Of a DNA stretch of 64,000 nucleotides, positions 31,476-37,603 are shown one piece after another; position 1 is the stretch's first letter, and each line of letters starts with the position of its first letter. Location of the stretch: contig JANQQU010000025.1 in NCBI GenBank assembly GCA_028284905.1, positions 1 through 64,000 on the forward strand. Direction: 5' to 3'. The translations under genes were made by a program, and so were the position numbers. The stretch comes from Calditrichia bacterium. Its GTDB lineage: Bacteria; Calditrichota; Calditrichia; RBG-13-44-9; J075. Below the pieces are notes generated by a model. It ran no database searches. It was given only the letters and a program-made list of their open reading frames with translations, and was not told where the DNA came from.

Positions 31476-34418
31476 TTAATGATCAGCTTTGCTCAAATCC
31501 TGGAATTCTTTCGCCTTTTCGACATTCCCACTTTTTTCATGTAATCTGCCAAGCAATATCGCTGTCTGGCGGGTTTTTTCGTCGGTAAGTCCCCGATGTT
31601 GTTTTTGTAAACTAAACACTTCCTGAAGCAGCGATTCCGCTTTGCTAAATTCGTTGCGCTGCAGACAAAATTCACCATAAACAAACAGTCCGTTCCAAAG
31701 CCGGGGATTGTTCTCCTTAACGCTGCTGCGAAATAGCTTTACCCCTGTATTCAATAGCGAATCTGCCAGCTGAAAATCGTCTCTTTCCCCGGCGATAAGG
31801 CCGCGTTGCGTATAACTTTCCGCTACTGCCGGGTGGGCTTCACCAAACAGATTTTGAAAAAGGTGAGCAGCAGCGATGTAAGCCGAATCGGACTTTACCC
31901 ATTGTTTTTGATCATGATAAACGGATGCCAGGGCAATGAGTGCATTTCCGGTCAGGCGGTGGGATTTCCCAAACACTTTACTGCGTAATGCTACCGCGCG
32001 CACCAGCAATTCTTCCGCTCTTCGTAAGTCTCCCTTCCGTTGCAGCAGCATTCCCTGGTAATACACTAATTTCACATATTCCGGATGGGATTCCCCATAA
32101 ACTTTCCCAATGATCGTTTCTGCCTCCTGAAAGCATGCTTCTGCTTCTGTAAATTCACCCTGCCGTCCAAGGATGCCAGCCAGATGGGTGAGACTATAAG
32201 CGACTTTCGGATGTTCTTCTCCCAGGGACGTACGACGGATTTGCAAGGCCCGGCGGTGTAATGCTTCCGAGGAGTCGACGCGTCCCATAATTTCACTGAG
32301 CTGTGCCATACTGGTGAAGGTATAGGCGAGGGTAGGGTGATCATCCCCGAGCAGTTTCTGATCGATATACAGGGATTGCCGCAGCATACTGTCGGCAGTT
32401 ACGAAATCTCCTTTATCGCGCAATAATTGCCCCAGGTTAAAATAAGTTGTCGAAGTCTCCTGATGTTCTTCACCGACCACCCGGCGTAATATTTTAATAC
32501 CCTTGCGAAAGAGTTTCTCCGCCGGTTCATAATCATTCTTTTCATGAAGTAGCAATGCGACATTATTGATTGTCGTAGCATAAGCAACGTTTTCCGGCGC
32601 ACCGTTCGCTTCCATTACCGCTAGTCCTTTATTATACCAGGTTTCTGCGGCATCGTATTCGCCCAGATCGTTTTTCAGCCAGCCGAGGAAATTCAGGGTG
32701 GTGACGTAATCATCAGTGTGGGATGCCTCCAGCGTTTTCTGGATTTCGATTGCCGCAATATATAACGATTCCGCCTGAGCAAAATTGCCGAGCATATGAT
32801 GATACTCACCCAGTGCCTGCATGCTTCTCGCCGTCCCGGCAATATCTGCAGCAGCTTCATTGTTGCGGAGGGTCAGCGATTTTTCCAACAGCGGTTTGGC
32901 GCGGGCATATAATCCAAGGTTGTTGTATACTCTGCCAATCACTTCCGAGAGTGCTGCTTTCACTTCCGGCTGGGAGGTTAGCTCCTGGTCCAGCCTTTTC
33001 GCCCCTTCATCGAGTAACTCCCGGGCTGTAACTGCCTCCCCGCGGGATTGATTGGGATCCGATATCGCAAAGATGCTGGTAAGAAATTCGGTAATTTGTG
33101 ATGCTTTCTGTGCCTCCAAACGCGCACGGTCTCTTTCTTCTGCCAGGCGGATAGTGTAGAAGCTGATCAGCGTTGCCAGGAGGAGAAGGGTCATTGCACT
33201 ACTGATAACAGCGAGGCGATGGCGCCGGATAAATTTCCCCGCCCGGTATTGAAAAGCATCCCCACTGGCAGAGACCGGTTTGTCATCGAGATAATTTCGT
33301 AAATCGTTGATGAACTCATCAATATACTGATACCGGCGTTCCGGTTCTTTTCGTAAGGCTTTCAAACAGATATTGTCGAGATCGCCACTCAGTTGCTGCT
33401 TTAACCTGGTAATACTAAGCTGGCGTAAGCGGGCTGTGTTTTCCGGTGAAGATTCTGTCGCTTTTGTAGAAGCGTTTTTCAGAAATAAACCGGTGCTCGG
33501 TTTTAAAGGATCCGTATGGCAAACGGCATCAACTAACGCAGCGACAGAATGGCTGTCCAGCCGGTAAGGAGGATTACCGGAAAGCAACAGGGAAAGGATC
33601 ACGCCCAGCGAATAGATATCCGAAGCGGTGGTTACCGCTTCTCCGCGAATTTGTTCGGGGCTGGCATATTCCGGCGTCATGGCCATCAAACCAGCCTGGG
33701 TAATTGTCTGCATGATAGCGTCATCGCTCTCGAGAAATTTGGCGATACCAAAATCGAGAAGCTTCACTTCACCGCTTCCGGTTACCATGATATTGCCCGG
33801 CTTTAAGTCCCGATGGATGACCAGATTGCGATGCGCATAACGCACTGCTTCACAAACTTCAATGAATAAACTTAGCCGGTCTTCAATAGATAGTTGGTTA
33901 CGGTCGCAATAGCAGTGAATCGGTTCGCCATCCACATATTCCATGGTGAAATAGGGATCACCATTTGTTGTAACGCCACCATCGAGCAGGCGAGCAATAT
34001 TCGGATGTTCCAGACGTGCCAGTATCTGCCGCTCGTTACGAAAGCGACTGAGGACTTCCCGGCTGTTTCTGCCGTTCTTGATCAGCTTCAAAGCGACCTG
34101 TTGTTTGAATTCACCATCGGAGCGCTCGGCAAGATAGACAGCGCCCATGCCACCAGTGCCAATCAGCGCTATAATACGGTAATTCTCAATTTGTGTGCCT
34201 GGCGCCAGGGTGTCCGGGGCGAGTGCTATGCCATCCAGCGCATGGCCATCCAGCATGCTGTGTGGACTGTCGTCTTCGGAAAGAAGTTGCATTATTTCCC
34301 GATAAAGTTCATCATTTCCCGCACATGCTTCCTGCACAAACGCCTCCCGTTTATCGATTGGGAGTTCGATCGCCGACTTAAAGATGGATTCTATTTTATC
34401 CCAGGTGTTTTGATTCAT
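31476..34418 (-). CDS. Membrane-anchored Ser/Thr protein kinase with TPR repeats
   Basis: A 980-residue protein. The first ~75 residues are a helical lead (DELYREIMQLLSEDD). The protein kinase domain (~80-385) contains glycine loop IGTGGMGAVYLAE, VALKLIK (catalytic Lys), HRDLKPGNIM, LDFGIAKFLE and TPEYASPEQIRG, so all Hanks motifs are intact. One membrane helix follows at about 400-422 (VISSAMTLLLLATLISFYTI). The rest (~470-970) is a row of kinesin-light-chain-like TPRs (YNNLGLYARAKPLLEKSL, LNFLGWLKNDLGEYDAAETW). An ECF sigma factor gene lies directly upstream on the same strand, a conserved pairing in which kinase and sigma factor act together. The TPR part probably recruits partners on the far side of the membrane. 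Confidence 0.95.
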   Translation of the reverse strand: MNQNTWDKIESIFKSAIELPIDKREAFVQEACAGNDELYREIMQLLSEDDSPHSMLDGHALDGIALAPDTLAPGTQIENYRIIALIGTGGMGAVYLAERSDGEFKQQVALKLIKNGRNSREVLSRFRNERQILARLEHPNIARLLDGGVTTNGDPYFTMEYVDGEPIHCYCDRNQLSIEDRLSLFIEVCEAVRYAHRNLVIHRDLKPGNIMVTGSGEVKLLDFGIAKFLESDDAIMQTITQAGLMAMTPEYASPEQIRGEAVTTASDIYSLGVILSLLLSGNPPYRLDSHSVAALVDAVCHTDPLKPSTGLFLKNASTKATESSPENTARLRQLSITRLKQQLSGDLDNICLKALRKEPERRYQYIDEFINDLRNYLDDKPVSASGDAFQYRAGKFIRRHRLAVISSAMTLLLLATLISFYTIRLAEERDRARLEAQKASQITEFLTSIFAISDPNQSRGEAVTARELLDEGAKRLDQELTSQPEVKAALSEVIGRVYNNLGLYARAKPLLEKSLTLRNNEAAADIAGTARSMQALGEYHHMLGNFAQAESLYIAAIEIQKTLEASHTDDYVTTLNFLGWLKNDLGEYDAAETWYNKGLAVMEANGAPENVAYATTINNVALLLHEKNDYEPAEKLFRKGIKILRRVVGEEHQETSTTYFNLGQLLRDKGDFVTADSMLRQSLYIDQKLLGDDHPTLAYTFTSMAQLSEIMGRVDSSEALHRRALQIRRTSLGEEHPKVAYSLTHLAGILGRQGEFTEAEACFQEAETIIGKVYGESHPEYVKLVYYQGMLLQRKGDLRRAEELLVRAVALRSKVFGKSHRLTGNALIALASVYHDQKQWVKSDSAYIAAAHLFQNLFGEAHPAVAESYTQRGLIAGERDDFQLADSLLNTGVKLFRSSVKENNPRLWNGLFVYGEFCLQRNEFSKAESLLQEVFSLQKQHRGLTDEKTRQTAILLGRLHEKSGNVEKAKEFQDLSKADH

Positions 34419-34486
34419 TGAGGTGTGCTTTTTTGAAGTGATTGTTCCTCGAATTGTTCTTTCTGCTCACTTTTAATTCGCTATTT

Positions 34487-34519
34487 CCATTCATCCTGAG
34501 CCTGCTGAAGGATGAATGG
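34487..34519. repeat. Perfect hairpin between sigma factor and kinase genes
   Basis: CCATTCATCCT (34487-34497) pairs with AGGATGAATGG (34509-34519), loop 11 nt. The sequence TCATCCTGAGC..GAAGGATGA is a dispersed intergenic palindrome type seen in many bacteria. Its place inside the sigma-kinase operon could damp downstream expression. Confidence 0.65.
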
Positions 34520-34543
34520 AGGTTAATGCAGTTTTAATAATCG

Positions 34544-35122
34544 TCATTCCGGGGTATCTCTTAACTCTTTGCTTAACCAGGCGCGGGCGAGGCGCCAGTC
34601 CAGGCGAACTGTCGGGATGGAAACGCCCAATGTTTCGGCAATCTCTTCGTGGGTTAAGCCGCCAAAAAAACGATACTCAACCACATTGGCCTGGCGCTCA
34701 TTTAGGGAAGATAAACGGGTCAGTGCTTCATCAAGATCGAGCAATCTTTCCGAGCGCCATTCCGCCCCAAAAGCTGCTTCATCGAATGTTGCGACCATCG
34801 CTCCGCCACCGCGCTTTTGGGCATTGCGCTGGTTGGCATAATTAATGAGAATCCGGCGCATCGCCTGCGAGGCAATCGCAAAAAAATGTGCGCGATTTTG
34901 CCAGTTGACGTTTTTCTGATTAACTAGTTTTAGATATGCTTCGTGTACTAATGCGGTGGTGTTTAGGGTGTGACCGGGACGCTCGCCATACAATTGCCGG
35001 TGGGCGATCTGCTGCAGGCCATCATAAATCAGCGGCATCAGCTGGTTGACAACTTCCCGGTTGCCGTCACTGATTTCGCTCAACAGCCTTGTTATTTCCT
35101 TCTGATGGCCATCCCATTCCAT
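34544..35122 (-). CDS. ECF-type RNA polymerase sigma factor
   Basis: A 192-residue sigma-70-family protein. Region 2 spans roughly 20-95 (LNTTALVHEAYLKLVNQ, RAHFFAIASQAMRRILINYA) and region 4 about 135-190 (LSSLNERQANVVEYRFFGGL, THEEIAETLGVSIPTVRLDW). The ALVHEAYLKL and AHFFAIASQAMR strings belong to the subgroup annotated as 'ECF sigma/Gemmata-like, Sig-70 X6', which is normally encoded next to Ser/Thr kinases. That is exactly the arrangement here, with the kinase-TPR gene 126 bp downstream. There is no anti-sigma gene, so control by phosphorylation through the partner kinase is the likeliest mechanism (inference). No clear ribosome site before ATG. Confidence 0.92.
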   Translation of the reverse strand: MEWDGHQKEITRLLSEISDGNREVVNQLMPLIYDGLQQIAHRQLYGERPGHTLNTTALVHEAYLKLVNQKNVNWQNRAHFFAIASQAMRRILINYANQRNAQKRGGGAMVATFDEAAFGAEWRSERLLDLDEALTRLSSLNERQANVVEYRFFGGLTHEEIAETLGVSIPTVRLDWRLARAWLSKELRDTPE

Positions 35123-36308: not shown

Positions 36309-37121
36309 ATGTCTGATAAAAAGAATCTAACCGAGCAGCAAAAAGTTTTTGTAGAGAAATATGCCCGGCCACGTTCTTCAATCTTGAAAGAAATTACCAG
36401 CAATATAATCGGGCATGATGCCGGGTTAAATGGCTATACAACACTGGCGCAAGCGCAAATGCTTTCTGAACAGCTCAATCTGGAAGAAAATGATTATTTG
36501 CTGGATTTAGGATGCGGATTTGGCTGGCCGGGGTTTCATGTGGCTGAATGCAGCGGCTGCAATGTTATTGCCACGGACTTAACGCCGCTGGCACTTCAGC
36601 ATGCCCGGCGTCAGGCAGATGCTTTTAAAATGAAAGGAAACGTCGATTTTGTTGCCGTTGACGCCACTGAATTGCCATTTCCCACAGACTTTTTTTCGGC
36701 GATTATCCATTCCGATGTGATGTGCTGAATTCCCGACAAACTCTCCGTGCTGAGAGAATGCCACCGCGTCCTGAAGCCAGGAGGACAAATTGCCGGATAT
36801 GTTATTTATACCCCAATGCATCTGAATGCGGAAGAAAAGAAAAAGGCTTCGGAGTGGGGACCCGGCGATGTCGTCGCAAAGGAACTGCCGGGCGCATTAT
36901 TACGAAGAGCCGGTTTTAAGTCGATATACGAGAAAGATGTTACCGATAATTACCGGGCAACTTGTCAAGACTTTATTCTTGCTCGCGAAAGATATGCCCG
37001 GGAGTTGCGGGCGGATTTCGGGGAAGCAGTCGCAGATATTGAGCTGGAGAAGAAGCGGGCCACATTAACTGGTATACAAGAAGGCCTGTTACGGCGAATG
37101 TATGTCTCCGGTCAAAAATAA
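36309..37121 (+). CDS. SAM-dependent methyltransferase with in-frame TGA (candidate selenoprotein)
   Basis: The frame opens at ATG 36309 and runs 270 codons to a TAA at 37119-37121, broken only by a TGA at 36726-36728 (codon 140). Before it stand the class I methyltransferase motifs: LLDLGCGFGWPG (SAM site, ~60-71), IATDLTPLALQHA and VAVDATELPFP. After it the domain continues in the same frame (IPDKLSVLRECHRVLKPGG, the usual post-motif). The TGA follows a Cys codon (HSDVMC-TGA). From memory, homologues often have a second Cys here (VLCC), which would make this a Cys/Sec exchange site. A stem-loop lies 12 nt downstream. The alternative is a gene killed by a single nonsense mutation. The 131 downstream codons show no other lesion. 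Confidence 0.75.
36735..36762 (+). promoter_or_regulatory. Candidate bacterial SECIS stem-loop
   Basis: CTCTC (36741-36745) pairs with GAGAG (36752-36756) around the hexaloop CGTGCT. Below it a 2x2 A-A internal loop is followed by CA/TG pairs. Seventeen nt separate the TGA from the apical loop, and a G occurs in the first two loop positions. Both fit the bacterial SECIS consensus as I know it. The upper stem has only five pairs, so chance is not excluded. Confidence 0.4.
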
Positions 37122-37168: not shown

Positions 37169-37603
37169 ATGAAGATTCGTCCTGCCGAAATTTCCGATCT
37201 ATCGAAAATTACCGAACTATCCGCTCAACTGGGATATCCAGTTTTCCGGGAGGATGTGGAAGTTCGACTACGGCAAATGCTGTCGAAAGATGACCATATA
37301 ATTCTGGTTGCCTGTTATGCGGATAATGATGTCATAGGATGGATTCATGCCTTTCTGGCCTATCGAGTTGAATCCGCGCTTTTTGCCGAACTGGGTGGCT
37401 TTGTGGTTGATGAAAATCATCGGGGAAAGGGGATCGGTAAGCAATTATTAAACGCTGTGGAAGACTGGTGCCGCGCCCGGGATGTTGGAAAGTTGCGGGT
37501 GCGCACGCGTGCTGATCGGGCGGATGCGCATGGATTTTATGAAGCCGCCGGTTTTCAAAGAACAAAAACGCAGTTGATTTTTGACAAGCCTTTGGGGGAA
37601 TGA
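37169..37603 (+). CDS. GNAT-family N-acetyltransferase
   Basis: A 144-residue single GNAT domain: IRPAEISDLSKITELSAQLG (strand 1/helix 1), ELGGFVVDENHRGKGIGKQL (acetyl-CoA loop RGKGIG) and DAHGFYEAAGFQRT (final strand). The family transfers an acetyl group from acetyl-CoA to small amines or protein N-termini. Substrate cannot be inferred. It follows the methyltransferase by 47 nt on the same strand, so the two may be co-transcribed. Ribosome site weak (GAGTGA). Confidence 0.88.
   Translation: MKIRPAEISDLSKITELSAQLGYPVFREDVEVRLRQMLSKDDHIILVACYADNDVIGWIHAFLAYRVESALFAELGGFVVDENHRGKGIGKQLLNAVEDWCRARDVGKLRVRTRADRADAHGFYEAAGFQRTKTQLIFDKPLGE

Follow-up and report, generated by a model that had tools for sequence, protein, structure and literature searches.

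The window analysed here is the whole 64,000-nucleotide stretch of DNA from a Calditrichia bacterium, and its plus strand encodes a class I SAM-dependent methyltransferase at positions 36309–37121. The reading frame comprises 270 codons, including one UGA, and ends in TAA. Its sole break is a TGA at 36726–36728 (codon 140), which lies directly 3′ of the TGC codon for Cys139 and is followed by 130 codons to the stop. A single Pfam domain, Methyltransf_11 (residues 65–161, E = 1.4e-19), spans the TGA, and the class I assignment is drawn from a Rossmann-like fold and a glycine-rich SAM motif, as seen with Pfam, AlphaFold and Foldseek. These observations bear out an initial annotation, made from the letters alone, which had described a 270-codon frame clean but for this TGA, a Cys codon directly before it, and methyltransferase motifs on both sides. 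The UGA thus sits inside one coding frame, as is expected of a bacterial selenoprotein gene.

Several other features surround this codon. Within the gene, a spacer (36729–36740) separates the UGA from a SECIS-like stem-loop on the plus strand (36741–36756), which is made up of CTCTC (36741–36745), the loop CGTGCT (36746–36751), and GAGAG (36752–36756). A GNAT acetyltransferase gene on the same strand (37169–37603) lies 47 nt downstream of the methyltransferase gene and is possibly co-transcribed with it; such a gene was not seen beside the methyltransferase at the Acidobacteriota orthologues examined. It terminates with TGA at 37601–37603, so TGA is a normal stop in the window, as had been stated at the outset. 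Further upstream, the minus strand of positions 31476–35122 encodes a Ser/Thr protein kinase with TPR repeats and an adjoining ECF sigma factor, which are likely to be a signalling pair.

Orthologues and the residue at position 140

The search for orthologues used an alignment in which the window protein was joined by copies varied on purpose, which served only to widen the patterns to GCGxGWPG and C[HRY]RVL[KR]PGG; matches from the widened patterns were verified with the unaltered window protein. Two orthologues from Vicinamibacterales, L078 and L079, came from the genome collection, and each has the TGA at this codon, reading HADTFC, then the TGA, then IPDKLSVLRECHRV. A search of the phylum and class of the genome carrying L079 added L190, L191, and L192, with one TGA each, and also L167, in which two adjacent in-frame TGA codons (L167:1882–1887, positions 139 and 140) lie between ADVF and IEDKLSVLR, before a single strong 8-bp hairpin. 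The predicted product of L167 would carry a Sec-Sec pair. These six orthologues, from draft Acidobacteriota genomes of which at least two are MAGs, share 37–44% protein identity with the window protein and have TGA at the identical codon. Together with the window gene, the seven TGA-bearing genes span at least two phyla.

One homologue with Cys was found, a full-length gene on a contig from a viral collection (L053), with Cys-Cys at the site (HSDLLCCLEDK). Within the close group formed by the seven TGA members and L053, position 140 is never anything but TGA or Cys. The initial annotation had proposed aligning homologues at codon 140 and had thought Cys/Sec exchange natural there; the alignment gives six independent orthologues in which the UGA is conserved and one homologue, the only close one with a sense codon, in which it is exchanged for Cys. 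Its statement that this methyltransferase group often has Cys there (VLCC) held in part, in that L053, the nearest Cys homologue, has LLCC, but distant methyltransferase homologues from generic searches have mostly His at position 140, and also Leu, Asn, Tyr, and Trp. The Cys residues conserved in the close group are those at 84, 139, and 140 (the latter two Cys or Sec), with Cys151 in seven of the eight members; no other conserved Cys occurs in this group.

A KSB1 methyltransferase homologue at L018:1501–2163, on the same contig as L082, shows an apparent frameshift just before the SAM motif. L018 was considered as a further TGA case and rejected: its TGA precedes the domain and the site itself is Asn. 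An exact 8-mer scan of genome contigs found nothing, and no orthologue was found in 39 further genomes of the window's phylum. The window gene was probably acquired by transfer.

The RNA element after the UGA and the selenocysteine machinery

The published model for bacterial SECIS elements, as described in PMC13188914, has a loop of 3–9 nt with G in the first two loop positions, a stem of 4–16 bp, a spacing of 16–37 nt, and an energy of at most −7.5 kcal/mol. All seven members satisfy the geometry and six reach the energy cut-off. The window hairpin has a 5-bp stem that starts 12 nt after the UGA, with G at loop position 2 and 17 nt from the UGA to the apical loop (5′ arm counted); its energy is −7.4 kcal/mol over 45 nt and its shuffle z-score is −0.67. 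The published model cannot decide by itself, because it is passed in full by 29% of the window's coding codons (2.7% in a stricter form). The distance and loop composition noted in the initial annotation stand, but judged alone the window hairpin is weak evidence and it is conservation that decides.

The core CTCTC-CGTG(C/T)T-GAGAG, 17 nt after the UGA, is kept in six of the seven members. In L167 the stem is lengthened to 8 bp. The seventh member, L192, has the stem in a shifted register (GCTCTCG-GTGCTA-CGAGAGT), with synonymous codon changes of TCC to TCG and of AGA to CGA. Over the 42 nt 3′ of the TGA, the six orthologues are 69–90% identical to the window gene, compared with 43–49% in the remaining gene. 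Pairs of identical residues share the same codon in 68% of cases in codons 141–153, compared with 43% elsewhere; of 250 sliding windows, those with the highest codon identity overlap codons 141–153. Against a null in which synonymous codons are sampled at random according to the usage of each gene, nucleotide identity to the window gene exceeds that expected from protein and codon usage in five of six pairs (P = 0.0004–0.006, values that are not independent as the seven members are related); for L192, the identity is not above the synonymous-codon expectation. This conservation of the nucleotides 3′ of the TGA beyond the needs of protein and codon usage supports the selenoprotein reading. The hairpin element is absent from the Cys homologue L053, and scanning viral contigs with a DNA pattern of the SECIS core gave no match.

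The initial annotation had also proposed a search for selA, selB, selD, and tRNA-Sec, and all four are encoded in the host genome, an 8.55 Mb draft in 93 contigs: tRNA-Sec at 73 bits (tRNA-SeC in ARAGORN), selA at 531.6 bits, selB at 349.5 bits over the frame, and selD at 388.6 bits. The selA gene is divided between the ends of two contigs (L012 and L013; G000 C46 and C28) and spans an assembly break. Host SelD (L014, G000 C21:22816–23739, minus strand) reads MTKEEITKLTHLVTCAG-U-ASKIG, with its own in-frame TGA (CAG-U-ASK) and, 16 nt on, a 5-nt loop CGGGT atop a 5-bp stem; the host therefore needs Sec for a known selenoprotein. For the orthologues, selB scores above cut-off in the genomes of L078 (G098) and L079 (G099), and tRNA-Sec was detected in G099 and G166. 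No tRNA-Sec above cut-off was found in G098, a MAG, among the 150 of 1393 candidates scored. ARAGORN also reports a 90-nt 'tRNA-Pyl' with anticodon CTA in this Vicinamibacterales genome (L160:1503–1592), which is a misprediction or else a tRNA that reads amber.

Because the UGA and an almost unchanged hairpin are shared by seven related genes, which come from at least two phyla, we consider it very probable that UGA140 is read as Sec and that the gene at 36309–37121 encodes a selenoprotein. The conserved UGA, the conserved RNA element, the Sec machinery, and the Cys homologue all support this interpretation, which the initial annotation had put forward as a candidate; the two of its refutation tests that were run, on the Sec machinery and on the homologues at codon 140, came out in its favour. 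An ordinary nonsense mutation would instead have left a recent pseudogene, cut at codon 139. A change from Trp or Leu was suggested by the first generic homologues, which lack Cys at position 140; some distant relatives do carry Trp or Leu there, residues whose codons can differ from TGA by a single base, and the lack of an orthologue in the 39 other genomes of the phylum leaves no local measure of selection. The idea was dropped after the TGA orthologues turned up. Six genes from other lineages, as diverged from the window gene as described above, carry TGA at exactly this codon with the frame intact beyond it, and a pseudogene is accordingly most improbable. A sequencing or assembly error at 36726–36728 is conceivable in a draft genome, but the same TGA stands in six separately assembled genomes, and we give this explanation the least credence of all. 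Readthrough in which a near-cognate or suppressor tRNA inserts a residue other than Sec, namely Trp or Cys, at the UGA would suit the Cys codon of L053 and the Trp found at this position in some distant families. However, ordinary genes in these genomes end in UGA, Sec machinery is present, and the SECIS-like element is conserved at standard spacing, all of which make such readthrough very unlikely.

Active site and possible chemistry

In the AlphaFold model of the window protein (pLDDT 93, pTM 0.91), the closest solved folds identified by Foldseek are phosphoethanolamine N-methyltransferases (PMTs), with TM about 0.8; other near folds are the small-molecule N- and O-methyltransferases TleD, RebM, and MitM. 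In sequence alignments, residue 140 falls on the His of a PMT motif that reads ILHI in the Arabidopsis enzyme and ILHL in PvPMT. The putative catalytic dyad of PvPMT consists of Y16 and H129, which are 3.2 and 4.8 Å from the SAM methyl (PMC4357015). The ILHL His is position 132 in the 4mwz chain and is taken to be H129, its number shifted by a three-residue tag; the structure of a PfPMT H132A mutant (3ujc) is among the Foldseek matches. From this alignment with the dyad His, Sec140 would be expected adjacent to the SAM methyl group.

The reading of UGA codon 140 as Sec by SelB and tRNA-Sec, guided by the hairpin that follows 17 nt after it, is well supported. Sec140 would pair with the preceding Cys139 (Sec with Sec in L167) after strand β4, and would occupy the place of the PMT dyad His, near the SAM methyl. 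We speculate that the Cys-Sec pair might bind and activate a soft metal(loid) or chalcogen, which would then be methylated.

A different use of Sec, to which we give an even chance, is that Sec140 and Cys139 form a redox switch (a selenenylsulfide), or that Sec stands in for the catalytic His of an otherwise ordinary O- or N-methyltransferase, with no metal(loid) involved. The nearest folds, those of small-molecule methyltransferases, are in line with this, as is the view that most known selenoproteins are redox proteins (PMC13188914). Against it, by analogy, stand the vicinal Cys-Sec motifs of SaoL and HgcA, which are organomercury and mercury-methylation proteins, and of the metal-binding MbdU (PMC13188914), and the precedent of a Sec-containing arsenite methyltransferase, ArsM. 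It is because of these motifs and this precedent that a metal(loid) or chalcogen role is favoured; a substrate of this kind, held by the Cys-Sec pair, is a tentative suggestion with somewhat less than an even chance of being correct. Redox switch or His replacement on the one side and metal(loid) activation on the other are about as likely.

Taken as a whole, the proposal is that these enzymes form a new selenoprotein family whose Sec (or Sec-Sec, from tandem UGA codons and one SECIS) would replace the catalytic His and play a direct part in methyl transfer, with a metal(loid) or chalcogen as the probable acceptor; we consider it possible, though a little more apt to fail than to stand. If true, Sec at the position of a methyltransferase catalytic dyad would bring methyl transfer within the reach of Sec chemistry and provide a concrete protein to test. 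The natural series of Cys-Cys, Cys-Sec, and predicted Sec-Sec at one site offers a ready-made way to ask why Sec is used, and L167, with its two adjacent UGAs before one SECIS, offers a natural case for tandem-UGA decoding. Standard annotation would truncate these genes at codon 139.

Relation to known methyltransferase and selenoprotein families

No NCBIfam model reaches its cut-off for the window protein or the members tested. A 2026 review of 119 selenoprotein families contains, judged by the motifs given, no methyltransferase with vicinal CU or UU at this site (PMC13188914). On these scores and published motifs, the methyltransferases described here appear to be a selenoprotein family that has not been catalogued before.

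The best NCBIfam match for all members tested is the DVU_1556 family methyltransferase (NF045667), at 58–68 bits against a cut-off of 155; the description of that model makes no mention of a selenoprotein. MduS (NF045649) resembles the window protein in having a methyltransferase domain with Sec, but the window protein scores 36.9 bits against its cut-off of 380, and the MduS motif is CxxU with two Sec (PMC13188914), whereas the window family has vicinal CU or UU. ArsM (NF008823; also NF041536 and NF041537) is likewise a class I SAM methyltransferase selenoprotein, with weak similarity of about 60–64 bits. The cut-offs of these models (263, 575, and 510 bits) are far above the scores of the window family, the window protein itself reaching 59.9 bits against 263. 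The Sec motif of Sec-containing ArsM is UxxG (PMC13188914), and ArsM relatives have N-L at positions 139–140, in contrast to Cys-Sec in the window protein. The phosphoethanolamine N-methyltransferases (AtPMT1/2, PfPMT, and PvPMT) are the closest in fold and, at about 16–22% identity to the window protein, have at this site the dyad His on which Sec140 aligns, instead of Cys or Sec.
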